DNA from: a virus
Strand: one strand, 5' to 3'
Virus record (IMG/VR): IMGVR_UViG_3300008113_008484
Span: 1-41,677 of that record
Length of the DNA stretch: 41,677 nucleotides
Shown here piece by piece: positions 7,088 through 36,608 of this stretch. Below the pieces are notes generated by a model, which saw nothing but the letters and a program-made list of their open reading frames with translations, had not been told where the DNA came from and searched no databases. Made by a program: the position numbers and the translations under genes. Every line of letters starts with the position of its first letter. Position 1 is the stretch's first letter.

Positions 7088-8785
7088 TTAATTTCCTGAT
7101 TTTAATGATCCTTTAAGTAGATTATTAACCCTAGAGTTATAAGTATAAGGAACAATAGATCTAACATCAATATTGACTGAAGATAGACTTTCCATTCCAG
7201 ATCCTAGATCGTAATATATTCCATTTCTATCTTCCCACCCTCCTGATATAATAACTATCTCATCCTTTCCAATCAAGATATCACCGAACTCGTCGAATCC
7301 TATATCTGGTGAATTTGGATTTTGTCTTTTAGCATCTTCATTTGACTGGCTAACAAAATACAGGGAAACTGAATCTATACCTTGGATTGCCTCTATTGCA
7401 GCAATTAAATCTGATCTAGGTATTTTGTCTCTTCTCCTTATGTTCAAGAAATAATTACTCAATGTATTAACTATAGTTGTTTTTATGGTATCTGGATCAT
7501 TTCCTTCAAATATAGTTATCGCTATATTTACCACGTACTTCTTTATAATTGGGTCAAGTATCTTAACATCTGTCGTAACTATTTTTTGTCCGCTCTCGTC
7601 AAGTAATTGATAGATACGATCTCTTTGTGGCTTTGTTAACTTAAACCTAGACAAAGGAATATCAAAATAGCTTTCGTTACTTTTAAGAGTTAATTGGATA
7701 TCTGGAACTAAGATAAGGTATATCACGTTATCGTCTCCGATATATTGATCATCGAAGGTTGTAAAAGCTTCTATGATAGAGAATTGACCAAATTTTTCAA
7801 AGAAAGTTATGTAGTTGGTAGGATTAGCTAAAACAAAACTTCTGGAAGTTTTAGGGGCTATCAATCTTGTTAAATCTACAGATTCTTGATTAGCTCCCAT
7901 TTGAGGAGGTATAGTACAAGTGATTTGTAATACATCTGAAAGAGTTATAGGATTACCATATAAATCTGTTCCCTCTGAATCAAAACTGAATATAGCTTGC
8001 GAAGCATCCTCTACAAGTATATTACCAGATGCTCCAGTAGATTCTAGATACGTTACCTGTATAATAGATCCTGCCGGTGGCGGGAATCCAAAATCGTTAG
8101 TACCAAAGAATACATCAACACCAGAAATTATAGAACTCTTAACCAAATATCCGAATCCATTTCTAGGTATATCATAGAGGGAATCGTATCTTTTCCATTC
8201 TACTCCGTTAACTTTAACGGACACTTCGAAATTTTCTATACTCGAAGTACCTCTTGAGGATATATTATAGCTTTGAAGTTTTCCTCCATTACCTGTGTAT
8301 TGATTGGTATTTAAATTACCTTCGATTATGGAGCAATTTAATTTATCAGTAGGATCTAAATTTAATCTGGTATACTCCTGAGGGAATTTTAACAAATATG
8401 TTTTCCCGTTATTTAAACATTTTACCTCGGAATTTTGTGGAACCAAAACTGCGCTTCCTCCTATATCTTCGAATTTTTTACCGTTCCATTTAATAGAAAC
8501 TTCTCCCTTTGCTGATATTGACCTTGTAGGGTTGTGTCCTGCTAAAGTTGCAAGACCATAAATCGAAGATTCCCTTGTTGCTGTATTGATATTCAATTCA
8601 GTTATCGAATCTTCAATAAAGAATAAAACAAATTGTGAAAGGTTGTCAAGTACGAATATTATCTGTCCCCAAACAGATGCAACAGTAAAAAGTTGATTTG
8701 ACATTCCATATCTTGCCTGTATTAGCTCGAAAGTCTGCGCTAATAAATCTGATATCTTGGCTCTGTTCTTTTGTAATAAATCCAT
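7088..8785 (-). CDS. Baseplate wedge protein, gp6/baseplate-J-like
   Basis: A 565-residue protein with the layout of T4 gp6 / baseplate J proteins, which form the ring of the contractile baseplate wedge. The N-terminal helices contain the characteristic stretch at residues 69-90 (ATRESSIYGLATLAGHNP), matching the 'rxs.y.lA..lGy.p' signature of the family. A beta-rich middle follows, then a C-terminal alpha/beta part (about 410-480, with NIRRRDKIPRSDLIAAIEAI) typical of the J domain end. It sits immediately after the gp25-like gene, as in many myoviruses. T4 gp6 is 660 residues, so this is slightly short. Function in the inner baseplate is known for the family; identity here rests on motif and context. 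Confidence 0.85.
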   Translation of the reverse strand: MDLLQKNRAKISDLLAQTFELIQARYGMSNQLFTVASVWGQIIFVLDNLSQFVLFFIEDSITELNINTATRESSIYGLATLAGHNPTRSISAKGEVSIKWNGKKFEDIGGSAVLVPQNSEVKCLNNGKTYLLKFPQEYTRLNLDPTDKLNCSIIEGNLNTNQYTGNGGKLQSYNISSRGTSSIENFEVSVKVNGVEWKRYDSLYDIPRNGFGYLVKSSIISGVDVFFGTNDFGFPPPAGSIIQVTYLESTGASGNILVEDASQAIFSFDSEGTDLYGNPITLSDVLQITCTIPPQMGANQESVDLTRLIAPKTSRSFVLANPTNYITFFEKFGQFSIIEAFTTFDDQYIGDDNVIYLILVPDIQLTLKSNESYFDIPLSRFKLTKPQRDRIYQLLDESGQKIVTTDVKILDPIIKKYVVNIAITIFEGNDPDTIKTTIVNTLSNYFLNIRRRDKIPRSDLIAAIEAIQGIDSVSLYFVSQSNEDAKRQNPNSPDIGFDEFGDILIGKDEIVIISGGWEDRNGIYYDLGSGMESLSSVNIDVRSIVPYTYNSRVNNLLKGSLKSGN

Positions 8786-8786: not shown

Positions 8787-9158
8787 TTATATTATTTTAA
8801 TTCCTAGTATCGGGTTACCTTTTATGGCAAAATCTATTATACAAGCATCTCTAGTTTCTCCTCTAAGAAATCCAACCTTAAATTGAACATCAAAAGCAGA
8901 TGAAGCTAGCGGTACATATGTAAGTAAATGAATCTCTATCGCTCTGCTTAGTGTTCCTTCATCAACCTCGAATTCGAATATAAGCCCCTCGAGATCTATA
9001 CCAAAATAAGGATCTCCTAGAACCTCTCCTGGTCTAGTAAGCATACAATTCTTTATCATACCAATTAGAATCTCTACTTGGTCATCAGTATGAAGAAGAC
9101 CTTCCTTGTAATTAGGATCGTCTGGGTTTCTTGGATAAATCTCTGAAAATCTTGCCAT
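8787..9158 (-). CDS. Baseplate wedge protein, gp25-like
   Basis: A 123-residue protein of the GPW/gp25 family, a lysozyme-fold-derived baseplate wedge component that links the baseplate to the sheath. The family signature is plain at residues 41-61 (TRPGEVLGDPYFGIDLEG followed by LIFE), including the conserved R-P-G-E and FG..L. T4 gp25 is 132 residues, so the length fits. It precedes the gp6-like gene with a one-base gap, the common myovirus order. The ATG has no Shine-Dalgarno sequence (leader ends AGAACAAG). An 83-base gap upstream carries a TATAAT-like box and a stem-loop, so expression could be partly independent of the genes before it. Confidence 0.9.
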   Translation of the reverse strand: MARFSEIYPRNPDDPNYKEGLLHTDDQVEILIGMIKNCMLTRPGEVLGDPYFGIDLEGLIFEFEVDEGTLSRAIEIHLLTYVPLASSAFDVQFKVGFLRGETRDACIIDFAIKGNPILGIKII

Positions 9159-9182
9159 CTTGTTCTATATATTCGATATCAA

Positions 9183-9844: not shown

Positions 9845-10582
9845 TTATTTTAATGTATATATTTCCTTTTCTGTAGTACCTAATGTTTGGATATTACTAG
9901 CATTTATTTGAACCCCTCCGGGAAGATTATAAGTAAAAGTACCAAGTAACCTACCAATATTTATTTTGGCTTCAGCAAGACAATATCTTACAAATAATTC
10001 GTCGTCATATAGGCTTTCTTCTGGGATATCTATATAAGCTCTAACTCCAACGTCAGTTCCTGTAAATTGAGAAGTTGAATTACCCCCGTCAGTTTGGTAA
10101 GTTCTGTTTGGATCCCTACCATTGATAGTAAGTCTCTTAGTATTCTTGTTGTAACCGAAAGCGTAAGTTTCTAAAAGATATGCCTTAGCAAGATCAAAGA
10201 AGGAATATAATACAGTTCTATAAACCAAGTTGTCCCCTGCAAAAGGAGAAAGCATAAGCTCTGATCCTAATAATTTAGAATCTCCAAAATCTTTATCTGG
10301 TGTGCCTATTAGACCTGATCCATTAACCTCTCTAACTTCATAAACAGATCTAACACATTGTGGTAATTGTATTTGTCTAGTTGCTCTAAATGCTGGTGTA
10401 GAAAAAAGTTCTCTGCCTAAAACAAATATCCTATCCTCTACAGCATATTGATAGTTGTCATAAAAATATGCTCTAGCTCTTTTTATAATCCTTTTAATCT
10501 CCTGCTCGTTAAGATTATAAGGAAGTGCACAAGAATGAGAAATCTCATCCTTTATTTCCTGGATTAAGTCAGCTTCTGTCAT
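9845..10582 (-). CDS. Putative neck/baseplate structural protein
   Basis: A 245-residue protein. The N-terminal helices begin with TEADLIQEIKDEI. The C-terminus has the pattern LAEAKINIGRLLGTF…NLPGGVQINASNIQ…EKEIYTL. From memory, similar 'LPGG…N…I…EKE' endings occur in neck or connector-like virion proteins of T4-related and jumbo phages, so I call it structural, but not with enough certainty to name it. The middle holds a beta-rich part with many aromatics. It is separated by six bases from each neighbour and lies in the baseplate operon. Another baseplate wedge component is the main alternative. No enzymatic motif is visible. Confidence 0.6.
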   Translation of the reverse strand: MTEADLIQEIKDEISHSCALPYNLNEQEIKRIIKRARAYFYDNYQYAVEDRIFVLGRELFSTPAFRATRQIQLPQCVRSVYEVREVNGSGLIGTPDKDFGDSKLLGSELMLSPFAGDNLVYRTVLYSFFDLAKAYLLETYAFGYNKNTKRLTINGRDPNRTYQTDGGNSTSQFTGTDVGVRAYIDIPEESLYDDELFVRYCLAEAKINIGRLLGTFTYNLPGGVQINASNIQTLGTTEKEIYTLK

Positions 10583-10588: not shown

Positions 10589-12031
10589 TTAATTATTTGA
10601 ATCGAATTTTATTCCAGGGATACCTGAAGGCTTCGAATTATTGTCAGAGAATCTTGCTGGTGTAGATGGTTCATCACCTTCGTTTCTGTTAGGGAATTGT
10701 AATTTTTTAGAACTTCCTTTTAACTTCTTGTCGTCTTCACCTTCTTTTACTATCTCTGTATCTGGAGATATTGTTGCAAGTTTTCCTATAAATCCAGATC
10801 TGATTATACCGCCGAATACTTCACAGTTGATCTCTTTATCTTTATTATCGATATAGCTATCATGTACGGTATTAGTAAAATATAAATCAGAAACCATAAC
10901 CTTACATCTGTTAATCTCGTTATTTGCTAGGAGATCACACTCCTCCATTGTGGAGTCGTTAAGTTTGGTATTGAATAATCTGCAATTTAATAAGTTTCCA
11001 GAGATTTCACCATCAAGTATATCATAATCCTTTAGAAGGTATGCTTTCGGTGTTTTAACGTCTTTTAATTGGAATTTACCAAGGGTACTATCATAGTTTA
11101 CTAATCCCTCTTTTATATTATTCTCAACTATAACATCATAAAGAACTTCTCTTATATTAATGAAGAAAGATCTCAATATTTGAGGATCTGATCTAAGATC
11201 TATCATAACATTCATGTGAGGATAGTTCTTCTGGAATGATTCAGGATCAACAAATGTAGAAGCACTCTTGTAGATCTCACTAAGAACCATTTTTAGAATC
11301 TTAAGATCATTTTCAGTGAAAGAGTCGTTGAATTGTAATACACCAACAGTATAAGTTATTATGTAATCGATAACTTCTTTTACTGATGAATATTTTTTCT
11401 GATAATCTTTACCTCCTAAGTATCTAACTTCAAAATATCCTTCAGGAAGCTTTAAGAAATTGACACCCATGTTTTTTTCTAGTGGAACGTCGAAAAGATT
11501 TTTGTCTATAAAAGCAACGTTACTAGGATCAACAAATTTATTAGCAGGTATAATCCTCTTTATAGATTTAGCATAAAGAGAGCCAACTCTATCTGGGAAT
11601 TTTTGATAAACAACATTTTCATCAAATCCTAGAATAAATTTAAGAATGTTTAATTGGGATATCGGTGGGACATCCGGATAAATCGAGGTATCTATACTTA
11701 CACCAAATTGGAACGCACATTTTTTATCTGTGTATCCATTCTCGTCTATCCATTTTAATGTTTTGATAAGAATTACGATAGCCTCAAAATAAGGAAGAGG
11801 ACCCGTGATGAATTCAACCATCTTGGATCCTCCTGAATAATCCGGTTCTAATTTAAAAATATCCTTAGTTGGTTTAAACTTGGAATGATATTTATTAAAT
11901 AGAAGTATTTTCTTACCTAAAACTTTTCCTAGGCTATATGTTATCTCATTTCGATTTAAGTTGCTATAGAACTCAAATTCAAAACCAAGCTTAGCCGAGT
12001 AGAAAAAATCATTAGAAAGTAAATTAGCCAA
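10589..12031 (-). CDS. Amidoligase-like protein with pentapeptide-like tail
   Basis: A 480-residue protein that resembles the GCS-like amidoligases, which form amide bonds between carboxylates and amines using ATP. The N-terminus has LGFEFEF (Glu18, Glu20), then MVEFITGPL (Glu73, matching the usual ELvSpPL) and YFEVRYLGG (Glu201, Arg203, matching the EfRlf motif). The usual central H-x-H is replaced by CAFQFGVS (about 105-112), so catalysis may be altered or lost. Residues about 330-410 look like irregular pentapeptide or beta-helix coils (CRLFNTKLNDSTMEECDLL), followed by a low-complexity polar tail. The start is TTG at 12031; no ATG occurs before residue 71. It begins four bases after the S1-like gene, which suggests coupled translation. 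Role in a baseplate operon is unknown; peptide tagging of a protein or cell-wall peptide modification is possible. Confidence 0.65.
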   Translation of the reverse strand: MANLLSNDFFYSAKLGFEFEFYSNLNRNEITYSLGKVLGKKILLFNKYHSKFKPTKDIFKLEPDYSGGSKMVEFITGPLPYFEAIVILIKTLKWIDENGYTDKKCAFQFGVSIDTSIYPDVPPISQLNILKFILGFDENVVYQKFPDRVGSLYAKSIKRIIPANKFVDPSNVAFIDKNLFDVPLEKNMGVNFLKLPEGYFEVRYLGGKDYQKKYSSVKEVIDYIITYTVGVLQFNDSFTENDLKILKMVLSEIYKSASTFVDPESFQKNYPHMNVMIDLRSDPQILRSFFINIREVLYDVIVENNIKEGLVNYDSTLGKFQLKDVKTPKAYLLKDYDILDGEISGNLLNCRLFNTKLNDSTMEECDLLANNEINRCKVMVSDLYFTNTVHDSYIDNKDKEINCEVFGGIIRSGFIGKLATISPDTEIVKEGEDDKKLKGSSKKLQFPNRNEGDEPSTPARFSDNNSKPSGIPGIKFDSNN

Positions 12032-12035: not shown

Positions 12036-13145
12036 TTATTTCTCTATTAATTGTACTTTGAGTGTAGAACTATCTACGCTCAAGATTGAACAATTAACCT
12101 CTTGCCCAACCTCATATTCTTTAATTGAGCCTACTAATTTTTCCTTTTCGATAAGTCCGCTTAAACCATTTTCCATTTTCACAAACACACCGAAGGTCTT
12201 AATCTTAGTAACCTCTCCTCTATATATTTTCAATTCAGTATTTTCCCCTAAAATCTCTTCAGAAGAATCCTTCATTTCTTGGATGGCTTTCATTTTTTCG
12301 TTTGCTTGTGAAACAGAAAGTGTTATTCTTTGTGGATTTTTGATGTCTATAACATAGAATTCTACAACATCACCAGCTTTTAATTTTTCTAAATTTTCTC
12401 TGTTGCTGTCGTCCATAGGAATAATTCCTGTATAGATCTCTTCCCACTCTACAAAAACACCACTGTTAGATGCTCCTGTAACTGTTCCTTCATATTTAGA
12501 AGCGAATGATAAATTTTGTACTTCCTTATCGATAATTTTCTTAAGATACTTTTTGAAAGAAACAACGAAGATATCTCTTTTCTGGTCATAAACTTCTACC
12601 ATTACGTGTAATTCCTTACCTACATAATCAGCGAAGTGAATGATTCTGTTAGCTGCTGCCAAGCTTCCAGGTAAGAAACATTCGATACCAGAAAGATCTA
12701 CCATAAATCCTCCGTTACAAACATTCTTAACTTTAACTCTGTAAGCACAATCTTCATCCTTGATAGATCTGTGTAACTCTCTTTTTAAAGATTTTTCGTA
12801 TCCTGCTGAAACAGAACCGTTAAAAGAACCTCCTTTATCTTTATGAATTACAACATCAAGAACCTGACCTTTTTCCATATCTACAGAAGGGAATCCCATT
12901 TTTCTCATGTGCTTCTCCTCCTTATTAGTATCAATAACTATGGTCTGCCCGAATGAAGTTTCAGCTAAAGCAATTCCCTTCTCAGCGTCAAAAGAATTAA
13001 CAACAACTCTTTCGAATCCATTGTTAGTCAAGTCCTTACCAGTAACTACTCCCGATACATCAGGGAAAGAGGAATCGTAAATATCTTTTAGTCTATCTCT
13101 CTCGGTAGTGTCGTATTCAAAAGAACTAAAATTTTTATTTTTCAT
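12036..13145 (-). CDS. Ribosomal protein S1-like RNA-binding protein
   Basis: A 369-residue protein with tandem S1 (OB-fold) RNA-binding domains: residues 133-198 (NGGFMVDLSGIECFLPGS), 217-280 (NSGVFVEWEEIYTGIIP) and 307-369 (TFGVFVKMENGLSGLIEKEKL). A diverged copy lies at about 29-115. Bacterial bS1 has six domains and about 557 residues in E. coli, so this is a shorter version. bS1 binds A/U-rich leaders and helps the 30S subunit start on mRNAs without a strong Shine-Dalgarno. S1-like genes are known from some large phages. Many genes here have weak or no Shine-Dalgarno, so a role in favouring phage mRNAs is plausible (inference). RNA decay or a virion role are alternatives. A TATAAT promoter-like sequence and a palindrome precede it, suggesting separate control from the surrounding baseplate genes. 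Confidence 0.88.
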   Translation of the reverse strand: MKNKNFSSFEYDTTERDRLKDIYDSSFPDVSGVVTGKDLTNNGFERVVVNSFDAEKGIALAETSFGQTIVIDTNKEEKHMRKMGFPSVDMEKGQVLDVVIHKDKGGSFNGSVSAGYEKSLKRELHRSIKDEDCAYRVKVKNVCNGGFMVDLSGIECFLPGSLAAANRIIHFADYVGKELHVMVEVYDQKRDIFVVSFKKYLKKIIDKEVQNLSFASKYEGTVTGASNSGVFVEWEEIYTGIIPMDDSNRENLEKLKAGDVVEFYVIDIKNPQRITLSVSQANEKMKAIQEMKDSSEEILGENTELKIYRGEVTKIKTFGVFVKMENGLSGLIEKEKLVGSIKEYEVGQEVNCSILSVDSSTLKVQLIEK

Positions 13146-13165
13146 ATTATTTGGGTTTGTATTAA

Positions 13166-13196
13166 ATTATAGTGCAATATTGCTTTAAAATTCCAA
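13166..13196 (-). promoter_or_regulatory. Candidate promoter for the S1-like gene
   Basis: On the minus strand a perfect TATAAT (13171-13166) lies 20 bases before the ATG, with TTGGAA (13196-13191) 19 bases upstream of it. The spacing is slightly long for a sigma-70 promoter. The box is part of ACTATAAT, which recurs in two other intergenic gaps (near 19480 and 26225). The predicted leader would be about 14 bases and has no Shine-Dalgarno. Confidence 0.42.
13174..13183. promoter_or_regulatory. Palindrome GCAATATTGC, operator-like
   Basis: A perfect 10-base palindrome, GCAATATTGC, sits between the -35-like and -10-like elements upstream of the S1-like gene, where a bound dimeric repressor would block RNA polymerase. 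It is the most G+C-containing piece of an otherwise A/T leader. No second copy was noticed elsewhere in the window, so its binding partner is unknown and chance cannot be excluded. Confidence 0.3.
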
Positions 13197-13211
13197 GAAA
13201 TTTCCACATTT

Positions 13212-16200
13212 TTAAAACTTTTTTTCATTCCAAGCTGTTTTTATTTCAGATTTAAGTTCCTTTATTGGATAAGCAGGATCAGATAAAGATCCGAAGAAAA
13301 ATTTAAATAATCCAGAAACGTCCGCAGCGCTTCTTAAAAATTCATCTATATAGGCAACGTAGTAAGAATTTCTAAGGCTCATTCTTCTCCAAACAGGATG
13401 ATCGTCATTCATTAACATAGGATTTAATAAATTCAATACACCTCTTCCCATAAGAATAGTTAACGGCCAAGGAAGCTTTGAAATCACATCCGCAGAAGCC
13501 TTTAGTTTAGGAAAAACTACCAAATCAGAGAGCGGAGTTTTTGGTTGGCTCTTGTAATATTCCCAGAAATTACCTTGAGGCATCCTAGCAAATGGAGGAG
13601 ATCCTAAACCTATAAGAGCCTGCTCTATAATATCCGTAGGTCTTGCATTGGGCAATATCTTTTTATTCAGAATATTAAATATAGGAGGTAAATTCTCAGC
13701 ATTAGGATTTATAAGGTTAGTTATAATATTTTTAGATATTTTCTGTATATCAAGAGGACCTAAGTCAGTAAATCTAGTAGAGAATGGATCGTTTATTTCT
13801 GGAATATTGGCTTCAAGAACACCATTTTCCATCGCTTTATCTAACAAATCTATTAATACACTTTTTATATCCTTTCCTTTTATTTTTATTTGTATCACTC
13901 CACCTAATCCGGGTATTTGTAGAAATGAATCTTGCTTGGGTGGGAATTTTACAGGAAACTCAAAAGCTGCAACAGCATTACCGAACTTACCATTTAAACT
14001 TTCCAAACAAGCCAATGTTCCTTTAGGATATGGATATCTAGATATTAAAGGTTCTTCAGCATCTAGAGGTCTAACCGGATCGAACTGACTGATAGCACTT
14101 AATCCAAGTTTTCTCGATATAATCTTTTTTAAATCCTTTACTCTTATAATAACAGAAGGATCCTCGCCATTATATCTAACATATTTAACAAAGTCATCAA
14201 TAGTATACTCAGTTCTTGCTAGCCCTTTTATTATCCTCTCCATCATATCCTTTATCTCCGGATCTCTTCTCTTAAATAACTTTAATTTTATAGGTGCGGA
14301 ATTAGTTATCTTAACAGGAGGGAAAGTTATTTCACCTTCATATTCCCCAAGATCTATTATAGAGAATATCCCTTCTCTTAATTTTTTTATCGTTGATATC
14401 TTATTACCCCACAGGATAACTGCGGTAATTATAATAGATGCTCTCCTTATTGGTCTCACTAATTCCTTGAACTCATCGTCTGTCATAAATCTAGGGTCTC
14501 CACTCTTTCTCAGAAAAAGTTTACTAGAATTTGCTACATCTAGATTCTCTATAGCATATCTAGGAGGACAAACAATCTTCATTAATTTCAAGGCCTCTCT
14601 CATCTCTTCCTTAAAATCTATAAAATTTGGACATTTAATGGGAACTAGACTAGTTTTCATTTCCTTTAATATTCTCATAGATCTAAGTATACCAGATATG
14701 TCTATTTTTAATCGACTCTTGCCTTTAGGAAAATATATGTCCTTCGGTGTTGGAATAGAATTCTTTAAATAAGTTTTTATTGTGTTTCTTAAAACAATCT
14801 TTCTCTCTCCAACTATACTATTTAGGGTAGCAACATCTGTGGTAAGATCGGGGAACTTTATATTATCGTCCAGTGCAAATTGATTCTCATACTGACGAAC
14901 CTTATCAAATATCTGATTCTTTAAGGCAAGTTCCTTAGTTTGTAAATCTCTTACCCCTTGCATATTTCCAGGAGGAGTAATAGTATCCATTATTTTAGAA
15001 AGATTCGCTTTTAAATCTTCTAAAACTCTATCCTTCGAATCTAAGTTATCTTTACCAAATCCAGGAAGAGGTAATAAATTATCAGGAATACCATAAGTTA
15101 ACATCTGCTTTATTTTCTCAAACGGGTCTTTTATTTTGGGATCAGATTTTCTAGGAATAAATCTCGGTCCTCTAAGTCCAGTAAGAAAGAATGATCCACC
15201 AGTTAAAAATTCTTTTATATAAACTAATGGTGTTGGCATAAACCCTCCAATGAAAGGAATAAAAATAACCATCAATCCTAAATTAAAAGGAAGCGGTATA
15301 AGTATAGGTTTAATTATTGTCCATATCATAGGTAAGGGTATCCTGATATAAGGAGCTCCGTCAACTGGGTTAGGTATAGGAATAGGTATAAAAGCAGGTG
15401 GTAAGTATCCAACTGGCCAATATTTTAATCCAAGTCTAACCGATGGACCACCTACTAAGAAAAACTCTTTCTTTTCTATAGGTGGTAATCCATTAGGAAA
15501 TGGCATTAGACCAACCTTAGTAACATCCTTACAAAATTGTTGCCACCAACATCTTTGAAAAATCGTAGGGCAGTCTGAACTCGGCGGACAAGACTTAAGA
15601 TAGTTTGGGGTCTTAAAATCAGATCCCGCTTTACCACAACACGGAGGTGGACAATTCTCAGGATCAGATCCGCTAGCTTCTGCTCCTCCACCTGCACCTG
15701 CAGCGGCATTTCCTCTTCCTGAAGGTCCTCGTCTTGAACCCGCACCGCAATCAATTCCAGAGAATTTTTTTTCTATTCCCTCAGGAGATATACTATCATT
15801 TAATTCAGCAATCTTCTGTGCTGCAAATAGCATTGTTTCTTGAATATCCTCATATTTTTTCTTAACGTCAAAATAATTCTCGAATATCCTTATTCCTACA
15901 GCTTCATTCTTAGAAAGAGCCTCAGCCAAAGAAGTAGCAGCTTTTCTTGCCTCTTTTTTTAGTTTATCTATGGCAGGTACTATATGAATATTTTTTGCTT
16001 GTCTGTATTTAGCATCCCACTTTGGCTTAAAATTGCTATTAAATTCAACAAATACAGGATTAGGATCACCTTCATCAGTAAACCCGGCAGGTCTAAGTTT
16101 AGCTGGATCTCTAGAGTTGTTATCCCCTCTTTCAGCAGCACTAAAGAAAAGCCAATTAGAGGAGGATTTCTCTATTAATTCCCCATAAAGAATTCCTCTA

Positions 16201-18530
16201 TCTTCTACTATATCTTTTATTATAGATTCCTTAGAATCATCTGTATCAATAATTTTTTCTAAAAAATCATAAAAATCTGCAACATCTTTTTGTCCTCGAA
16301 TTAGATTATTTATTTTTAAAGATTGATAACTTATTAGAAAGCTTGGAATCCTTCCTGCTAAAAGCCCTCCATTATTTGCATACTCATTTCCCAATCTAAT
16401 TAGCGGTAAATCTGGTATATTCACAGTAACTGTAGATTCAGTGCTTCCTTTTAAACTAAATTTAGCAGGTTTTTCAGTTTCTATATAGGGTATAGGATTT
16501 CCATAATCCGTAGGTAAAGAAAGTTTTATTATCAATTCACCCCGACTTTTAGAAATATCAGTTTCATATCTAACAGAGAATTCTTTAAGTAAATCTAGAA
16601 ATTTATGGCCCTTCAAAACCCTGTTGGCTTCTGACAATGTATCTTCTCCCTGTCCATAAGGATCCGAAAGATCTATCTTGTCCGGGGTGAACAGTTTCTC
16701 TAGATCTTGTATATTTACTGTCTTTTTCTTTCTTTCTGACAATTTATCTAATGAGGCCTGAAGTAGATTTTTAGTCTCACTAAAATCAGATTTTAATTTA
16801 TCTATGAATCTTTTCTTCAGCAGATAATCTCTTATTATATCCTTATTAGAAGATATAATAGTAACGGCAGTGCTTATAGGCCAAGAAGAATTAGAATCGT
16901 CATAAATTATAATCTCATTATTTCTGTCTATTCCTTCTTTTATAAATTTTTTCAATTCTTTCTCTGTAAGATCGAGAACTGCAATATTTATATTGAATAT
17001 TTTATCATTGAATATTTTAAATGCACCAAGAAAATCTTTTTTATCGTTAGAATAATCTCCTTGCTCTTGTAATATTTGCTCGCTATAGTTCGATAATTGG
17101 TCTCGGTATGTTAATGCCTGAATTGCTATCCCGAGATCGCTATTGGCTCCTACAGTACCATCGGAAGCATTTTTTTTCCATTCACTAGCTAACGTTTTAT
17201 GATATTCATATATCGCTTCATAATGATAAAGTATCTCTTCCAAGCTTCTCTCGATCGATTGCCATCTAGAAAGCTTTTTTATCTCATCTTGTAGCTGATC
17301 CGTTTTTTGTAATGCAGCATTTAAACATCCTTCGATAGCTTCGACATCAACGTCTTCCGTAACTGGATCTGGAACCTCAATAGGATCTTCAAGAGGGGAT
17401 TGAGGTATATCTGATTCTTCTATAGGATCACAAAATTCTTCAGTAATCTGTTCAAATTTTTGTTTAGTAGCAATAGGGTCTCCTGTTATTGGATCCTCAG
17501 GTATACCAGCAAAACAATCATCGTTAATCTGCACAGGATCATCTCCATCGGGATAAAAATTACCATCAAATTCGTCAAAAGTACCAACATCTATAATTTC
17601 GTCTAAATTAATTTCTTCTTCCTCGTCAAGTTCATTATTCCTAGCTCCTCTACTAAAATCTCTAAGATCCAATGATTTATTAAAATCACATGGTTTTGCA
17701 TTAGCATATTGATCCTTAAGTAATTTGTTTATCTTCTTTATTAGTTTATCGAAGCTAATTTCCTCACCACCTATTTTTACATGGACTATTCTAGTGCCAG
17801 CCATTATAAAGACTAGAGGTATTTTAAAACCAAGTACATTCAGTTTTCTTTTCTTTTTTGCACCAGAATTAGAAGGCTTACCAACAATGATTGGATCTAG
17901 GTTATCAAATATTCTCTCGTTTATTCTATCTAGTAATTCCGGATTTTTATCTCTTAGATATTTTGTTATTCCTGAAGAGGATCTGCCACGTGTTATATCT
18001 GAAGAACCTCTTCTAGATTCTATTCCTGATATAGAACCACTTTTTCCTACTACCGCATCAAGATTAATATTAGTAACAGATACACCTATATCACTTTCAG
18101 TTACAGGGGAATCATTTTTAAATTCATCAGAATTTATCAATGAGTCATATAAAGTAGGCTCATCATTTTTTAGGGTCTCTAATATTATTGCACTATAAAG
18201 TTGGTCTCCCTCATAATTACAAGCTAACTCTTCAATCCTCTCCATCGGTATTGGAGGAGGTCCTGGTTTTAAGCTCTCGATAACTGAATCTACATCTTTC
18301 TGTGTCCTCCCCAATTCTCTCTCAAATCCCTCTTTGGTCTGTATATCGTCGTAAGGAAGATTCAGAGCCTCGTCACCAGTAGTTAAATTTTCCCCGGTAA
18401 TTACACTTCTTGCCTGGTCATCAATAGTTAAACTTCCTCCAGCAATTATACCTATTACCTGTTCAGAGGTTATACTAGAAAAGTCCATGTCCATTAATCG
18501 GTCTATCCTAGATCCTATTCTATCTGCCAT
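13212..18530 (-). CDS. Very large virion protein with hydrophobic Pro-rich belt
   Basis: A 1772-residue protein I cannot assign to a family. It lies directly after the OB-fold spike gene, so it is probably a tail or baseplate component. Visible parts in order: an acidic linker (about 295-345), a coiled-coil-like helical region (about 400-620), a glycine/serine-rich linker with a cysteine cluster (about 925-980, including PPPCC and two more CPP/CPT motifs), and a strongly hydrophobic proline-rich belt (about 1020-1125, e.g. LPPAFIPIPIPNP and LPMIWTIIKPILIPLPF). A mixed alpha/beta C-terminal third follows. The belt could insert into a membrane or pack inside the tail. Tape measure is an alternative because of the length, but the helical content is too low overall for me to favour it. 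Twelve bases separate it from the spike gene. Confidence 0.75.
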   Translation of the reverse strand: MADRIGSRIDRLMDMDFSSITSEQVIGIIAGGSLTIDDQARSVITGENLTTGDEALNLPYDDIQTKEGFERELGRTQKDVDSVIESLKPGPPPIPMERIEELACNYEGDQLYSAIILETLKNDEPTLYDSLINSDEFKNDSPVTESDIGVSVTNINLDAVVGKSGSISGIESRRGSSDITRGRSSSGITKYLRDKNPELLDRINERIFDNLDPIIVGKPSNSGAKKKRKLNVLGFKIPLVFIMAGTRIVHVKIGGEEISFDKLIKKINKLLKDQYANAKPCDFNKSLDLRDFSRGARNNELDEEEEINLDEIIDVGTFDEFDGNFYPDGDDPVQINDDCFAGIPEDPITGDPIATKQKFEQITEEFCDPIEESDIPQSPLEDPIEVPDPVTEDVDVEAIEGCLNAALQKTDQLQDEIKKLSRWQSIERSLEEILYHYEAIYEYHKTLASEWKKNASDGTVGANSDLGIAIQALTYRDQLSNYSEQILQEQGDYSNDKKDFLGAFKIFNDKIFNINIAVLDLTEKELKKFIKEGIDRNNEIIIYDDSNSSWPISTAVTIISSNKDIIRDYLLKKRFIDKLKSDFSETKNLLQASLDKLSERKKKTVNIQDLEKLFTPDKIDLSDPYGQGEDTLSEANRVLKGHKFLDLLKEFSVRYETDISKSRGELIIKLSLPTDYGNPIPYIETEKPAKFSLKGSTESTVTVNIPDLPLIRLGNEYANNGGLLAGRIPSFLISYQSLKINNLIRGQKDVADFYDFLEKIIDTDDSKESIIKDIVEDRGILYGELIEKSSSNWLFFSAAERGDNNSRDPAKLRPAGFTDEGDPNPVFVEFNSNFKPKWDAKYRQAKNIHIVPAIDKLKKEARKAATSLAEALSKNEAVGIRIFENYFDVKKKYEDIQETMLFAAQKIAELNDSISPEGIEKKFSGIDCGAGSRRGPSGRGNAAAGAGGGAEASGSDPENCPPPCCGKAGSDFKTPNYLKSCPPSSDCPTIFQRCWWQQFCKDVTKVGLMPFPNGLPPIEKKEFFLVGGPSVRLGLKYWPVGYLPPAFIPIPIPNPVDGAPYIRIPLPMIWTIIKPILIPLPFNLGLMVIFIPFIGGFMPTPLVYIKEFLTGGSFFLTGLRGPRFIPRKSDPKIKDPFEKIKQMLTYGIPDNLLPLPGFGKDNLDSKDRVLEDLKANLSKIMDTITPPGNMQGVRDLQTKELALKNQIFDKVRQYENQFALDDNIKFPDLTTDVATLNSIVGERKIVLRNTIKTYLKNSIPTPKDIYFPKGKSRLKIDISGILRSMRILKEMKTSLVPIKCPNFIDFKEEMREALKLMKIVCPPRYAIENLDVANSSKLFLRKSGDPRFMTDDEFKELVRPIRRASIIITAVILWGNKISTIKKLREGIFSIIDLGEYEGEITFPPVKITNSAPIKLKLFKRRDPEIKDMMERIIKGLARTEYTIDDFVKYVRYNGEDPSVIIRVKDLKKIISRKLGLSAISQFDPVRPLDAEEPLISRYPYPKGTLACLESLNGKFGNAVAAFEFPVKFPPKQDSFLQIPGLGGVIQIKIKGKDIKSVLIDLLDKAMENGVLEANIPEINDPFSTRFTDLGPLDIQKISKNIITNLINPNAENLPPIFNILNKKILPNARPTDIIEQALIGLGSPPFARMPQGNFWEYYKSQPKTPLSDLVVFPKLKASADVISKLPWPLTILMGRGVLNLLNPMLMNDDHPVWRRMSLRNSYYVAYIDEFLRSAADVSGLFKFFFGSLSDPAYPIKELKSEIKTAWNEKKF

Positions 18531-18542: not shown

Positions 18543-19472
18543 TTATACTCTTCCTATTCCGCTAGTACCACTAGTACCGCCAGTTACACCAATAGAATCA
18601 AGAGTAGCTCTTGCTATAGCACTTAATAAGTTATTAGATGTACCAGCAGGGGATTCCGGATTAAGTGGATTAACAGGATATTCGTTAAAGTTATCTCTAG
18701 TAACCCTAACAGTTTGGCTAGTTGCTAACTGCTCGAAACTTGAAGCTAGTGTAGAATTAACTCCTGGAGTAGCAGGTATTTTACTATCCACAGATATTGC
18801 TAATTTTTTTAAGAAATCCCATAGAGGTTCAGCACAAACAGCAGAGAAAAGAGGACTATGTCCAAGATTTGTTGTTTTACCGTCCACCCAAACTTCTTCA
18901 GAACTATGTTTAATTCTAGTAATAGCAGTATTTTCTATCTCCTGGTCAGCATACTTAGTTATTTTACCGCCCTTTAATTCTATTGATGAAGTGTCGTCAG
19001 CATGCGTAATAAGTATAGAATTATCGTTTCTTATAATTATTTTAGAGTCCTTTAGATCTATAACTAATCCCTTCTCGACAGTATAGAACATTTTTAATCT
19101 TTCTATACCATCATATATTAAGGAGTGTGCACCATCATAACTATTTCTTATCTCTGCTATTAGGTCAGGAGATAATTCCTGAACAGCTTTATATTCGGGG
19201 CTATAATAGTTACCGTTATTGAATTGAACATGAACAACAGATCCAAGCTTAGGAACTGACATTCTTCCAGATCCTCCCCTTATACCGTAACTTTGTTCAA
19301 ATCTTTGATGTGCCCAAGGTAGATCCTCGTCTGGAATATCCTCGAATACACCAAATACCTTGATCTTTGCTCTTCCTCTAAATTCGGGATCCTTGTTATC
19401 TACAACAACTCCCAAATAATGAGAGATATCCGTATTCGGTCTCTCTAATCTATTTCTGTCTACTAGTCCCAT
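18543..19472 (-). CDS. Baseplate central spike protein, gp5 OB-fold type
   Basis: A 309-residue protein whose N-terminal OB domain (residues 18-98) matches the gp5/VgrG spike family: YLGVVVDNKDPEFRGRAKIKVFG, then DIPDEDLPWA and PKLGSVVHVQFNNGN. In T4, gp5 trims with the gp27 hub and carries a lysozyme domain and a beta-helix needle. Here no lysozyme domain is present. Residues about 120-200 form a short repetitive beta region (VIDLKDSKIIIRNDNSILI) that could be the needle. The C-terminus is low-complexity Gly/Thr/Ser. It is next to the hub-like genes, consistent with a central spike. An ACTATAAT box lies 11 bases upstream of the ATG, so a transcript from it would have almost no leader. Confidence 0.85.
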   Translation of the reverse strand: MGLVDRNRLERPNTDISHYLGVVVDNKDPEFRGRAKIKVFGVFEDIPDEDLPWAHQRFEQSYGIRGGSGRMSVPKLGSVVHVQFNNGNYYSPEYKAVQELSPDLIAEIRNSYDGAHSLIYDGIERLKMFYTVEKGLVIDLKDSKIIIRNDNSILITHADDTSSIELKGGKITKYADQEIENTAITRIKHSSEEVWVDGKTTNLGHSPLFSAVCAEPLWDFLKKLAISVDSKIPATPGVNSTLASSFEQLATSQTVRVTRDNFNEYPVNPLNPESPAGTSNNLLSAIARATLDSIGVTGGTSGTSGIGRV

Positions 19473-28127: not shown

Positions 28128-28748
28128 TTAAACCTCTGTATAATTTTGATACATGGATTCGAATTCATCTACTGAAACAAGACCTAATATCTCATTTCTA
28201 TTATTTGTAAAGTAATCCCAAGAAACTGCTAAATCTGGAAAAGCATTTAATGTTTCGTTAGTCTCCCTAGTTAAAATACCAACTCCCCAATCAGAATTAA
28301 CAGTAACAAGTTTTAGATCGTTTCTATACAATCTTAACTTTATCAAAGAAAGATATACTGTTCCGTTCCAATCACCGTTAGCAGGAGCTGTAAAAACAGG
28401 TGATTCTGCAGCATGAAATTTAGTAGGCGGATTACAGTCATGTAAAACTATAGTACCTCCTTCTGCAAGACGATCTAATGAATTCTTTATGTCCTTATCA
28501 ACCTGGTGATCTAGGTGTAATCCATCGATAAAAACTATATCAAATTTAGTGTCAGCTTCTAAGCTTTCAAAAAAAGAATCAGATGTCATGATATGGGTAG
28601 TGTGCTCTGAAACTGGAGCAGGGTCTACACCAATTTTATTTGCACAGCATATATGTTTGAAACATTCTCCGTCTCTTACTCCGATTTCTAGATAATTTGT
28701 ATAACCCTTACTCTCGATAATTCTGTTTATTATTTCGTATCTATACAT
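28128..28748 (-). CDS. SAM-dependent methyltransferase (class I)
   Basis: A 206-residue class I SAM methyltransferase of the Methyltransf_24 type. Motif I is LEIGVRDGE (residues 20-28), a VDPAP acidic loop at about 41-45 follows, and the post-motif strand is FDIVFIDGLHLDHQVDKDI (69-87) with EGGTIVLHDCNP (96-107). Enzymes with this motif set often sit in polysaccharide clusters and methylate sugars, although small-molecule targets are known too. It is the final gene of the glycan cassette in transcription order, two bases gap from the 72-residue gene, so a glycan or NDP-sugar substrate is the best guess. No signal peptide or membrane segment; cytoplasmic. Confidence 0.8.
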   Translation of the reverse strand: MYRYEIINRIIESKGYTNYLEIGVRDGECFKHICCANKIGVDPAPVSEHTTHIMTSDSFFESLEADTKFDIVFIDGLHLDHQVDKDIKNSLDRLAEGGTIVLHDCNPPTKFHAAESPVFTAPANGDWNGTVYLSLIKLRLYRNDLKLVTVNSDWGVGILTRETNETLNAFPDLAVSWDYFTNNRNEILGLVSVDEFESMYQNYTEV

Positions 28749-28749
28749 G

Positions 28750-28968
28750 TTATTGTCCTATGCTTTTTAAATATTTTAAATAATTTCTTCTAGTTGTCAA
28801 CTTATATAAATTTTCATTTACAAGTTTTATGTAACTTTCTGTAGAAAGTCTTTTGGATTTATACATTCTAGTTAAAGTCTCTATAGAATCTATCGATTCT
28901 CTTATAGAACTTACACTAACGGATCCTGTTTCTTTTTTAACCATCTTATTTTGTTTTACAAATTCCAT
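28750..28968 (-). CDS. Small helical protein in glycan cassette
   Basis: A 72-residue, mostly helical, lysine- and serine-rich protein without a recognised domain. It overlaps the end of the preceding glycosyltransferase gene by 13 bases if it starts at 28968. A second in-frame ATG (Met9, position 28944) would remove the overlap and leave an 11-base gap. The downstream methyltransferase follows with one base between them. Whether it is a regulatory or accessory peptide for the cassette cannot be judged. Confidence 0.55.
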   Translation of the reverse strand: MEFVKQNKMVKKETGSVSVSSIRESIDSIETLTRMYKSKRLSTESYIKLVNENLYKLTTRRNYLKYLKSIGQ

Positions 28969-29660
28969 TTTTCTTTAAACAAAGGATAAGAACCACTAGT
29001 CATATTGTACATCTGGTTATAATCCTTAACTACAGCTTCAGTTGTTTTTCCTATGTTTTTATCATGATGTACTACAACAGAATCTGTAACTAGTGCATGT
29101 TTCAAACCGTTTTTCCACATTTCCATCGCATAGTCGTTATCACAATACCAATGTGTGAATCTCTCATCAAGATCCCCTATCTTATCGTAGATTTCTCTCT
29201 TGTGAACTATACACCACCCGGACAATTGTTTTCTTATTTCATATCCTTTTAATAATCCGGTGTTTTCGAATATTCCATATAGAGGCTGTGTCATCGGACA
29301 TAATGGAGAAAATGATATAACCTCTGGGTTTTTATTAGAAGCTTCTATAATCTTACTAAACCATCCTTTTTTAAACTCTAAATCATTATTACATAGAGCA
29401 ACCCAAGGTGCGTTTCCTTTCTTTCTCCCAAAATTTAAAAACTTGTGATATCCATAAGGAAGGGGAGCTTCATAAGTTTTTATGTTTGGTGCATTATCCC
29501 AGCTAAATCCTGGTTGGGATTCAACAACTATAATATTAAAAATTTCTGAAGAATTTTCTTCGGACAATAATAATGAGCTTATACAATTCTTTGTTAGCTC
29601 CTTACAATAATCATCCTTAGCGTAACTGACTATTACTATATCTAAGATTTTATCCTGCAT
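28956..29660 (-). CDS. GT2-family glycosyltransferase
   Basis: A 234-residue GT-A fold glycosyltransferase of the GT2 type. The start LDIVIVSYAKDDYCKELTKNCI is the nucleotide-binding strand and helix. NND (residues 91-93, in ALCNNDLEF) replaces the DxD metal motif as in many rhamnosyltransferase-like GT2 enzymes. The acceptor region has LSGWCIVHKREIYDKIGDLDERF and WYCDNDYAMEMW (about 145-182), like the usual 'G.c..ikR..f..iG.fDe.f….ED.d…r'. No transmembrane segment, so a cytoplasmic enzyme that adds one sugar from a nucleotide donor. Its start overlaps the kdsA end by 11 bases. Donor and acceptor are unknown. Confidence 0.85.
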   Translation of the reverse strand: MQDKILDIVIVSYAKDDYCKELTKNCISSLLLSEENSSEIFNIIVVESQPGFSWDNAPNIKTYEAPLPYGYHKFLNFGRKKGNAPWVALCNNDLEFKKGWFSKIIEASNKNPEVISFSPLCPMTQPLYGIFENTGLLKGYEIRKQLSGWCIVHKREIYDKIGDLDERFTHWYCDNDYAMEMWKNGLKHALVTDSVVVHHDKNIGKTTEAVVKDYNQMYNMTSGSYPLFKEKWNL

Positions 29661-30486
29661 CGTAAATTGATCTTGCTTTAGATATTATACTCTGTAATTT
29701 TGAAAGTTCCAACATATTTTCAGAATCTGACGGAGAAAGATCTGGATAAGGATGTGTTTCTATGAATAATCCATCCGCATTCATAGCTGCTCCATACTTA
29801 ACCATGTCCTCTATATAATCACCCTGCCCTCCTGTTTTTCCTTGTGTTCCGTTAGGTTTCTGTAGACTATGTGTACAATCTAAAACAACCGCAGAATTTT
29901 TACAATATTTTTTAAGTTTAGAAATAGAAGTGACATCAACAACTAAATCATTATATCCAAACGAGTTTCCTCTTTCGCATATAATCATACGATTACCACC
30001 AGATTTATAAAATTTGGATTCTATAAATGAACATGCTTCATGAGAAAGGAATTGTCCCTTCTTCACCATAGTGATTTTTCCTGTACTTGCACAAGCCTCG
30101 ATAAGATCAGTCTGTCTACAAAGAAATGCAGGGATCTGCAAAATATCAACACTCTGTGCAACAATTTTAACCTGTGATGCTTCGTGAACATCGGTTATAG
30201 TTGGAATACCTACGGATTCTCTTATCCTAGAAAGTATTTCTAAGGATCTATCCATATCTATTCCTCTGAATCCTTCAGGAGATGTGCGATTAGCCTTGTC
30301 CCAACTTCCTTTAAATACAGGAAGGAAATTGTAGAGTTTTGCTACTCTTTTTAATTCTAATGCAATCTCGTAGCAAGTATCCCAGCTCTGTATAACGCAA
30401 GGACCTGCTATTAACAATTTAGATCTTTTATTACCTCCAGACTTGTAAAAATCAAGATCTAGATTTCTCACCGTTATATCCTCCAT
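29650..30486 (-). CDS. kdsA: 3-deoxy-D-manno-octulosonate 8-phosphate synthase
   Basis: A 278-residue KdsA, which condenses phosphoenolpyruvate and D-arabinose 5-phosphate to KDO-8-phosphate, the committed step to the inner-core LPS sugar KDO. Conserved blocks: LIAGPCVIQS (25-34), FKGSWDKANRTS (58-69), ITDVHE (97-102), QIPAFLCRQTDL (117-128), ERGNSFGYNDLVVDV (171-185) and ETHPYPDLSPSDSEN (243-257). Cys30, His206, Glu243 and Asp254 match the metal ligands of the metal-dependent (class II) enzymes; E. coli has Asn in place of that Cys. Length matches the family (284 in E. coli). It overlaps the KdsD-like gene by 35 bases, so the two consecutive steps are probably translationally coupled. KDO phosphatase (KdsC) and CMP-KDO synthetase (KdsB) are not seen in the window and would come from the host or another part of the genome. 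Confidence 0.96.
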   Translation of the reverse strand: MEDITVRNLDLDFYKSGGNKRSKLLIAGPCVIQSWDTCYEIALELKRVAKLYNFLPVFKGSWDKANRTSPEGFRGIDMDRSLEILSRIRESVGIPTITDVHEASQVKIVAQSVDILQIPAFLCRQTDLIEACASTGKITMVKKGQFLSHEACSFIESKFYKSGGNRMIICERGNSFGYNDLVVDVTSISKLKKYCKNSAVVLDCTHSLQKPNGTQGKTGGQGDYIEDMVKYGAAMNADGLFIETHPYPDLSPSDSENMLELSKLQSIISKARSIYDAG

Positions 30487-31030
30487 GATGTAGCTTTGAA
30501 TATTCTTTCTTAGTAAAATGTCTTCCCATCAATCCAACAACTATCAAATCACATATTACAGACATACAAGTAGTAGAAGTTGTTGGAGTTAATCCAAGAG
30601 GGCATATCTCCTCTACTGGACCAAATTCCAAGAAGTCCGCACATTTAAGCGATATCTGTTCTGTGCTTTTTCCCACTATTGCAAATATGTAATTGCTATA
30701 CCCTAAATTATGGATCAGATCTATTAATTCCATAACTTCTCTAGTTTTACCAGAGTTGCTAAAAACCAATATAGCATCGCCAGGTCTCACCATTCCTAGA
30801 TCACCGTGTTGAGCTTCTGCTGGATGTAAAAAGAAAGCAGGATTCCCAGTAGAACATAGGGTAGTCGCAAATGTATGTGCTATCTGTCCTGCTTTACCCA
30901 TTCCAGAAGTTATTATTCTACCATTCTGGCCTTTGTAATATCTAATCTGTCTAATAAGGTCTTCTATACGATGTACAGGTATTTGTTTAATAAATTCTAT
31001 TTCTTTTTCTATAAGTTCATTTAAATTCAT
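30452..31030 (-). CDS. kdsD: D-arabinose 5-phosphate isomerase, SIS-only
   Basis: A 192-residue SIS-domain isomerase converting D-ribulose 5-phosphate to D-arabinose 5-phosphate, the substrate of KdsA. The family hallmark HPAEAQHGDLGM (69-80) is present, as are TSGMGKAGQIA (41-51, with Lys46) and SNSGKTREV (about 90-98). E. coli KdsD (about 328 residues) has two C-terminal CBS domains; here the protein stops after the SIS domain. CBS-less versions are known in some bacteria. The next gene is kdsA, overlapping by 35 bases, which strongly supports the assignment over other SIS sugar isomerases. Cytoplasmic. The missing CBS part probably removes regulation, not catalysis (inference). Confidence 0.9.
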   Translation of the reverse strand: MNLNELIEKEIEFIKQIPVHRIEDLIRQIRYYKGQNGRIITSGMGKAGQIAHTFATTLCSTGNPAFFLHPAEAQHGDLGMVRPGDAILVFSNSGKTREVMELIDLIHNLGYSNYIFAIVGKSTEQISLKCADFLEFGPVEEICPLGLTPTTSTTCMSVICDLIVVGLMGRHFTKKEYSKLHHGGYNGEKSRS

Positions 31031-31048
31031 CGAATAAAAGATTAAAAA

Positions 31049-32044
31049 TTAGCGTAAAGATTTTACACCCTGTAATACGTCCATCCAATGGTCGCACATT
31101 TCGTGTAACATTTCAGTAAAAGTATATGTAGGTTCCCATCCTAGTTCTTTTCTTGCCTTAGTTGAATCTCCTTTTAAATATGGTAATTCCTCCGGTCTTA
31201 AAAATTTAGGATTCTGAACAATATATTCTTTATAATCAAGATCCAAGTAAGAAAAAACAACTTCACACATATCCCTAACGCTGTGCGTTTCCATAGTAGA
31301 AACAACGAAATCGTCAGCTTTATCGTGATTAATTATCTTGTGCATAGCCTTAACATAATCCTTAGAATGACCCCAGTCTCTATACGAATCCATGTTACCC
31401 ATTTCTAACTTATCAGCTAATCCTAATTTTATCTCACAAGCTCCTTTCACAACCTTATTTGTTACGAAATTAGATCCTCTTCTTGGAGATTCGTGATTAA
31501 ATAGTATACCATTGCAAGCATGTAATCCGTATGCTCTTCTATAATGTCTAACTATGTTGTATCCAAAAACTTTACTGCATCCGTACGGAGAAACAGGGTT
31601 CATTGAAGTTGTTTCCCTTTGGAATCCGTCATCGTCAACAGATAGTCCAAACATTTCGGAAGAACTTGCTTGGTAAAATTTAGAATTAGGAACGATTCTT
31701 TTGTATGCCTCTAACATGTTTATAACCCCTATGGAGTTAGATTGTACAGTATACTGAGGAACATCGAAACTGATTCTAACATGGCTTTGAGCACCTATAT
31801 TGTATATTTCGTCGGGCTTAACATCAGTCAATAATTTTTCAATGGATGTCTGATCTGTAAGATCCCCGTAGTGTGTAAAAAGATATGGGTTGTCCAAAAC
31901 CGGAACTAATCTCGCCGATTGATTTTCTGATGTAGAATTTCTTCTAACCATCCCATGGACTTCATAATCCATAGATAAAAGATATTCAGCTAAATAACTA
32001 CCGTCTTGACCGTTTATCCCTGTGATAAATGCTCTTTTTTTCAT
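31049..32044 (-). CDS. gmd: GDP-mannose 4,6-dehydratase
   Basis: A 331-residue extended short-chain dehydrogenase/reductase that turns GDP-D-mannose into GDP-4-keto-6-deoxy-D-mannose, precursor of GDP-fucose, rhamnose, perosamine and related sugars. Evidence: NADP-binding ITGINGQDGSYLAEYLL (7-23), YQASSSEMFG (124-133), YGCSK with Tyr154 and Lys158, and the Gmd-typical LFNHESPRRG (about 181-190), plus GNMDSYRDWGHSKDYV. Length is in the family range (E. coli 373). The leader is A/T-only (…AATAAAAATTA-ATG) and a weak terminator-like hairpin precedes it. Genes that could use its product nearby: a DegT-type aminotransferase (perosamine route) and GT10/GT11 fucosyltransferase-like enzymes. No GDP-fucose synthase is visible in the window. 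Confidence 0.96.
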   Translation of the reverse strand: MKKRAFITGINGQDGSYLAEYLLSMDYEVHGMVRRNSTSENQSARLVPVLDNPYLFTHYGDLTDQTSIEKLLTDVKPDEIYNIGAQSHVRISFDVPQYTVQSNSIGVINMLEAYKRIVPNSKFYQASSSEMFGLSVDDDGFQRETTSMNPVSPYGCSKVFGYNIVRHYRRAYGLHACNGILFNHESPRRGSNFVTNKVVKGACEIKLGLADKLEMGNMDSYRDWGHSKDYVKAMHKIINHDKADDFVVSTMETHSVRDMCEVVFSYLDLDYKEYIVQNPKFLRPEELPYLKGDSTKARKELGWEPTYTFTEMLHEMCDHWMDVLQGVKSLR

Positions 32045-32059
32045 TAATTTTTATTATTT

Positions 32060-32080
32060 AAAAAAACACATAAAGCGTTT
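32060..32080 (-). terminator. Weak terminator-like hairpin before gmd
   Basis: Between the aminotransferase-like gene and gmd, AAACGC (32080-32075) can pair with GTGTTT (32069-32064) around TTTAT, followed by a short T run (32063-32060) on the minus strand. One pair is G-U and the stem is only six base pairs, so partial termination or mRNA processing is the most it would do. Confidence 0.28.
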
Positions 32081-32085
32081 ATATT

Positions 32086-32694
32086 TTATATTTTAGATTC
32101 TCTAAAAAATTTCATTTGTGTTAAATCTGGCCAGTCTGTGTATATCCATTTCCTAGGCTCAGTCTCTATTGCTTTATCTATTTTAGATAAACCTATCTCA
32201 GCGGATTCAGGTGTCATATAATAATGAAATCCGAGTGTATCTATATCCTGGTCTCTCCAAGGAACATTTGGAAGTCTACCATCATAGCTCATCTTCTTAA
32301 GAATCTCGTAATCTTCCTTATTGTCACAAAGGATCATTCCACCTCTTCCTATACTTAAATGTTTCTGGTATTGAAAACTTAGACACATAAAGGTATTTGG
32401 TATATACGAATCTTTTTTCCATAGAACTGCAGCATCTATGATTCTTTTATCTCCGTAATTTAGTGTATAGTAATCTTCCCAAACTTCATCTCTCCATTCT
32501 CTTTCCAATCCCATTTTTTCTGCTAGGAAGGGAACAGAAAGATAAGTTCTCTTAGGAACATTTATTTTTTTCTCACCAGTGTATCTTAGACATAATTCTA
32601 TACCGTGGGTACAGCTATCAACTGCAACCGCATATGGTGACCCAAAGAATTCTGATATTCTTTTTTCTAATTCTTCTACAGCTTTAAAACTCAT
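32086..32694 (-). CDS. Short DegT/DnrJ/EryC1-type aminotransferase-like protein
   Basis: A 202-residue protein with the core of PLP-dependent sugar aminotransferases: FFGSPYAVAVDSCTHGIELCL (16-36), the cofactor-contacting Asp in RIIDAA (Asp87) and the PLP-lysine motif SFQYQKHLSIGRGGMIL (106-122; Lys111). The family is normally about 370 residues. The stretch between the second strand and Asp87 is compressed, and the C-terminal domain is replaced by about 60 residues. Catalysis is therefore uncertain. If active with the adjacent Gmd, it could make GDP-perosamine. Because key PLP residues are kept, I read it as a reduced but functional homologue or partner subunit rather than a random pseudogene. 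No frameshift is visible in nearby sequence. Three bases separate it from the DUF1796 gene. Confidence 0.75.
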   Translation of the reverse strand: MSFKAVEELEKRISEFFGSPYAVAVDSCTHGIELCLRYTGEKKINVPKRTYLSVPFLAEKMGLEREWRDEVWEDYYTLNYGDKRIIDAAVLWKKDSYIPNTFMCLSFQYQKHLSIGRGGMILCDNKEDYEILKKMSYDGRLPNVPWRDQDIDTLGFHYYMTPESAEIGLSKIDKAIETEPRKWIYTDWPDLTQMKFFRESKI

Positions 32695-32697
32695 ATT

Positions 32698-36602: not shown

Positions 36603-36608
36603 TTATAA

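Follow-up and report, generated by a model that had tools for sequence, protein, structure and literature searches.

Ribosomal protein S1 helps ribosomes catch mRNA. In Bacteroidota the anti-Shine-Dalgarno sequence is sequestered; thus, mRNAs must be chosen by some other means, for which bS1 is a candidate, though one that has so far been hard to test. The locus examined here raises the question of what an S1-like gene does amid the baseplate genes of a phage, and what controls it. The window (the whole stretch of DNA that was analysed) is a 41.7 kb virus record, a fragment without a larger assembly behind it. The original prediction held that the phage may supply its own S1 to steer host ribosomes towards its mRNAs, and that the gene may be separately controlled by a promoter with an operator-like palindrome.

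Identity and domain structure of the S1-like protein

The gene is a 369 amino acid open reading frame with an ATG start (12036–13145, minus strand). Its product matched Pfam PF00575 in three stretches (E 7.9e-20) and PDB chains of bS1 at 2e-22. The rpsA model TIGR00717 matched residues 70–366 (E 1.1e-27), with a score of 96.8 bits that lies far below the equivalog cut-off of 577 bits; we thus classed the protein as a phage bS1 homologue and not as rpsA itself. An AlphaFold model based on an alignment of 22 relatives (pLDDT 77.7 on average; pTM 0.49, as expected with domains on flexible links) showed four OB-type domains, of which the first is diverged, preceded by a helix at the N-terminus. 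The top solved-structure match of this model was E. coli bS1 in a 30S mRNA-delivery complex (E 3e-22), and the top viral-model matches were S1 proteins of Virus NIOZ-UU157 and uncultured phages. When its profile was aligned with that of nine bacterial bS1 proteins, the match ran colinearly from the FDW segment at the N-terminus to D4 (probability 99.3, E 7e-21).

All four domains lie on the minus strand. D1 (approximately residues 36–113; 12807–13040) is the diverged OB domain, placed by the model and the profile alignment and missed by Pfam alone. D2 (approximately 133–199; 12549–12749), supported by the PDB match, the model and the profile alignment, carries the bS1 signature GGFMVDLSGIECFLPGSL, whose E. 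coli counterpart is GGFTVELNGIRAFLPGSL. D3 (approximately 213–279; 12309–12509) was placed by the model and the profile alignment, and D4 (approximately 306–368; 12042–12230) by Pfam and the model. D5 and D6 are absent according to both the model and the profile alignment. The protein had been described as having three S1 domains and a further, diverged one, and this description was borne out, the four being D1 (diverged) to D4 of bS1. We concluded that the gene encodes a real, conserved four-domain bS1 homologue consisting of an N-terminal putative anchor segment and D1–D4.

In E. coli S1, Phe5 and Phe9 of the N-terminus stack on uS2, and losing either aromatic ring abolishes ribosome binding (PMC4288201). 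The window protein has aromatics at F6, F9 and Y11 and then a helix at residues 13–26, and we regard this whole segment (13065–13130, minus strand) as a candidate uS2 anchor on the basis of the modelled helix, the aromatics kept in relatives and the E. coli precedent. The corresponding aromatics read FDW in a distant clade of relatives and F-N/D-W in Lak phages, and one Bacteroidota bS1 has NFDWDAF at the same place; the clade member LR756504 shows a weaker pattern. The segment supports ribosome docking by an argument that is positional and partly concerns low-confidence residues (1–10) of the model.

Bacterial bS1 (rpsA of E. coli and Bacteroidota) shares with the phage protein an aromatic N-terminal segment, the order D1–D4 and the FLPGS signature of D2. 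The phage protein differs in lacking D5–D6, in its 21–24% identity to bacterial bS1, in a phage-specific AAANRI directly after the D2 signature, and in forming a separate deep clade. D3 is among its best conserved parts; D4 has degenerated in the distant clade, and Lak proteins lack it.

Distribution and genomic neighbourhood

Searching with the S1 protein matched 33 IMG/VR loci, most at 72–79% identity and eight at 37–40%, with identical gene order wherever a contig shows the order. Because ascertainment bias was to be avoided, loci were also recruited with a conserved neighbour as bait (9845–10582, minus strand; a weak match to head-tail adaptor phrog_211, identified by PHROG search and synteny). 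S1 lay just upstream of the homologue of gene 10589–12031 in 74 of the 79 loci recruited in this way. The other five end too near the bait to show S1; none of the 74 that are long enough lacks it. Among annotated phages, the bait matched 21 records of the collection, namely 15 Lak records and six huge-phage records of 462–735 kb (two of the six have identical length and are possibly duplicates), and S1 was present in all 21. We concluded that S1 is a core gene of a wide giant-phage lineage that includes Lak and related huge phages, and not sporadic cargo. Contigs of relatives reach 230–245 kb and others 462–735 kb; the window is probably part of a large phage with a Bacteroidota host, the host phylum being one that we infer.

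The gene had also been placed in the middle of baseplate genes, and this held: wedge-like proteins are encoded at 7088–8785 and 8787–9158, and a hub-like protein at 18543–19472. Search and synteny identified the upstream syntenic neighbour (13212–18530, minus strand) as a large baseplate-region protein. The downstream syntenic neighbour (10589–12031, minus strand) co-evolves with S1 by synteny and distance comparison. This gene, with a TTG or alternative start, encodes a conserved tail-region protein of the lineage in near-perfect co-evolution with S1, and it had no Pfam or PHROG match.

Such a location could mean that an OB-fold protein was recruited into the tail, as OB folds are also used by baseplate hubs and the place between baseplate-region genes is conserved in all near and distant relatives. 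We consider a virion role very unlikely, however. The window S1 matched no PHROG family, tail families included, and its best structural matches are ribosomal S1 proteins. LR756500 keeps the order S1, 10589 homologue, 9845 homologue; in Lak and the 634–735 kb phages, S1 is kept though it lies far from the homologues of these two baseplate-region genes, which argues that its retention is independent of the baseplate cluster.

Descent and selection

Across 60 loci, S1 distances followed those of the 10589 protein (Mantel r 0.97) and the 9845 protein (0.86). The median dN/dS of S1 in the near clade was approximately 0.08, with dS near saturation, and S1 is under purifying selection. In a tree on shared columns with midpoint root, the phage S1 proteins formed one deep clade in which the window protein, homologous to the S1 of Lak and LR huge phages, is monophyletic with them; branches are long and support for this monophyly is only 81. 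The 31 Bacteroidota bS1 proteins formed a fully supported clade with the phage clade outside it. Recent capture from a Bacteroidota host is therefore unsupported, as the phage gene also tracks its phage neighbours. Bacteroidota S1 paralogues (L241–L244) were considered as a source and did not group with the phage clade. We concluded that S1 is an old core phage gene that descends with the phage.

Several other S1 hits of the phage collection, two records (L044 and L209) among them, were rejected as phage S1 and used only as bacterial references. MT835643 holds a 597 amino acid full-length bS1 of Bacteroidota type, and CAKLQH020000011, an Acinetobacter phage record, has the order cmk-rpsA-himD; both seem to be bacterial DNA. 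A bS21 partner gene was not found in 17 IMG records (fragments), LR756500 or two Lak genomes. Of seven reference huge phages, four have bS21, which makes S1 the more constant gene.

The leader of the S1 gene

The proposed control rested on a TATAAT box, taken for the −10 element of an S1 promoter, and on the palindrome GCAATATTGC, taken for an operator lying between that promoter's two boxes. Both strings are literally present on the minus strand, at 13171–13166 and 13183–13174 respectively. The palindrome, however, occurred in none of the 74 other loci and was also absent from the separately listed relatives; some perfect 10-nt palindrome is found in 17% of shuffled S1 leaders, and the window contains 53 of them. 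At the TATAAT position the relatives have ACTAGAAA, ACTACAAA or ACTAAAAT, the spacing from TTGGAA to TATAAT is 19 nt, and a sigma-70-type promoter scan did not list the TATAAT site upstream of S1. These results led us to reject the palindrome as an operator, given its 0/74 conservation and chance expectation, and TATAAT as a conserved promoter, given the relatives' differing sequence. The two strings are peculiar to the window sequence, and we find this mode of control hardly credible. Since TATAAT is not conserved, the octamer ACTATAAT at 13166–13173 (minus strand), the position of a conserved ACTAnAA core, is only a candidate promoter element.

The relatives share other leader features: CTTGGAAATTTTAA approximately 50 nt before the ATG, the ACTAnAA core approximately 30 nt before it, and an A-rich ACAAACCCAAATAA just before it. 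The element common to them and confined to S1 is TTGGAAATTTT, which in most cases (11 of 15 leader types) forms part of a hairpin, though a weak one. The window has a degenerate copy of the CTTGGAAATTTTAA element, TCTTGGAATTTTAAA (13184–13198, minus strand), in which the second hairpin arm is lost. Leader comparison also showed an A-rich initiation region without a Shine-Dalgarno (SD) sequence, ACAAACCCAAATAAT (13146–13160, minus strand), that is conserved in near relatives.

In MAFFT alignments of near relatives, identity over positions −60 to −1 was 0.79 for S1, compared with 0.68 before 18543–19472 and 0.56 before 8787–9158, both of which also have an intergenic leader. Against the 0.79 of the leader, identity at fourfold sites within S1 itself was 0.50 (pairs below 85% protein identity). 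The MAFFT comparison with other leaders replaced an earlier test with a permissive aligner, which had separated leaders (0.85) poorly from shuffles (0.78). The string TTGGAAATTTTAA occurred once each in eight of 12 long contigs. By coordinates it was the S1 leader in seven of these eight, and the S1 leader of the eighth has TTAGAAATTTTAA.

An inverted repeat, TGGA-N6..14-TCCA, was present in 11 of 15 representative TGGAA leaders with five different spacers; shuffles predict 1.0, and the P value is optimistic because the representative leaders are related. Nine of the 11 fold as small hairpins (z −2.6 or lower). That complementarity is kept at several spacings suggests selection, and a spacer of variable length is easier to reconcile with a hairpin in the RNA than with a fixed operator in the DNA. 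Rfam contained no match in the S1 leader. The S1-specific element of the relatives probably reflects gene-specific control of S1. Separate control thus fails in the form built on the palindrome and TATAAT, and may hold for the family through a different element, the conserved S1-only one.

The S1-only element would also suit a protein that acts on RNA without entering the ribosome, whether on its own leader or on the stability, processing or antitermination of phage mRNA. Many RNA-binding proteins contain S1 domains, and E. coli S1 has extra-ribosomal roles, with RegB and Q-beta replicase among those summarised in PMC13157829. In a generic S1-domain protein, however, the bS1-specific D2 signature, the tandem domains colinear with D1–D4 and the N-terminal anchor segment would be unexpected, and the window S1 has them all. 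An off-ribosome function is, in our judgment, quite improbable.

Similar boxes were seen elsewhere. The sequence GAATATATAGAaCAAG (9159–9176), directly before the ATG of gene 8787–9158 (minus strand), is nearly invariant in near relatives, while the rest of that leader is not. It resembles a phage promoter, placed so near the start that the mRNA might have almost no leader. In the distant clade, GATATATA boxes similar to GAATATATAGAaCAAG precede S1.

Translation signals and proposed role

Adenine made up 0.525 of positions −20 to −1 of the window genes versus 0.359 on the strand, and by position it reached 0.71 at −3, 0.67 at −6 and 0.62 at −12. Strong SD cores (AGGAG, GGAGG, AAGGA, GAGG) were found in none of 37 window genes. 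SD-like 4-mers of any kind preceded four of 36 genes, compared with 1.7 in shuffles. The expectation of A-rich leaders without SD was therefore correct for adenine and for strong SD cores, although the weak 4-mers are not depleted. Well-translated genes of F. johnsoniae have adenines at −3, −6, −12 and −13 (PMC6847099), and the window leaders look like such Bacteroidota leaders. Because a Bacteroidota host already translates leaders of this kind, the leaders alone do not demand a phage S1. Added bS1 in F. johnsoniae doubled initiation on one SD-less mRNA and had little effect on rpsU (PMC9976891), indicating that S1 can select among mRNAs.

Steering of host ribosomes by a phage-supplied S1 remains the best reading of the locus, given the colinear bS1 homology, the universal presence in the lineage and the Bacteroidota-like leaders; only the regulatory half of the original prediction rested on the wrong elements. 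We consider it reasonably probable, from sequence comparison and modelling, that the phage bS1 attaches to the 30S subunit of the host and gives preference to phage mRNAs whose leaders are rich in A and poor in SD sequences. Contact with uS2 would be made by the aromatic N-terminus together with D1–D2, with host bS1 either displaced or still alongside, and D3–D4 would hold A/U-rich phage leaders. Because the gene is carried among baseplate genes, we infer that S1 is made late, and it may help ribosomes choose late phage mRNAs. In relatives, the S1-only leader element probably places S1 synthesis under gene-specific control, possibly by autoregulation. Autoregulation is known for E. coli rpsA. 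That the whole giant-phage family keeps S1 suggests that its role is probably to aid the takeover of host ribosomes by the phage. A stronger version, in which ribosomes come to prefer phage mRNAs because the phage bS1 takes the place of the host protein on their 30S subunits across the giant Bacteroidota phage lineage, with self-control through a hairpin in its own leader in part of that lineage, seems unlikely as a whole.

The absence of D5–D6 suggests fewer mRNA contacts than host bS1 makes, and some clades have a degenerate D4 or none at all, so that the protein may have little capacity to bind mRNA. These same features would fit a truncated protein that fills the uS2 site, has too few domains for mRNA binding and so depresses translation in the host instead of recruiting phage mRNA. 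Late phage mRNAs, however, require the same ribosomes and lack SD sequences, the strong conservation of D3 fits RNA binding, and four-domain S1 proteins work in some bacteria. A dominant-negative role is thus distinctly less probable than steering, and we would be surprised to find it.

Relation to other phage-encoded ribosomal proteins

The general hypothesis is already published. Al-Shayeb et al. proposed in 2020 that rpS1 of huge phages, which rarely have SD sequences, acts in initiation (PMC7162821). The window S1 belongs with that group (LR7565xx, LR745206, Lak): the proteins are homologous, the phages are SD-poor and, probably in the case of the window too, huge, and the same role is proposed. 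That study reported rpS1 in a few genomes; new here are its core status and conserved synteny across a wide clade, the D1–D4 architecture with a candidate anchor segment, the constant location next to baseplate genes and the leader element confined to S1. Mizuno et al. excluded the S1 domain, since non-ribosomal proteins have it too (PMC6375957). Phage-encoded bS21 (Mizuno 2019, PMC6375957; Chen 2022, as cited in PMC9976891) is likewise a copy of a small-subunit initiation protein with a link to Bacteroidota hosts. It is a different protein, however, and was not found in the S1-clade records, though four of the seven reference huge phages have it. The Microcystis jumbo phage PhiMa05 also encodes bS1 (PMC13157829), but it does so alongside five further ribosomal proteins, and the origin of its bS1 was traced to a host resembling Vampirovibrio, whereas the window S1 stands alone and belongs to an ancient phage clade.

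A bS1 that is core to giant phages of Bacteroidota would be a natural, compact tool for the question of mRNA choice. Its core status also suggests that phages of very large size have a basic need to control initiation. Retention in 74 of 74 loci and the S1-only leader element offer concrete, testable handles.

Other genes of the window and its relatives

No tRNA genes were found in the window. The region 28128–41003 encodes glycosyltransferases, a nucleotide-sugar epimerase, and aminotransferase-like and methyltransferase-like proteins, pointing to a cassette for glycosylation or surface sugars. In two huge phages a UVR-motif protein of 129–136 amino acids is encoded directly upstream of S1 (L037:5295–5684 and L040:5094–5504). 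Three phages of 634–642 kb encode S1-domain proteins of 601–646 amino acids (L256:1012–2952, L257:201–2006 and L258:1083–2987) that are RNase R/RNase II-like by their motifs.
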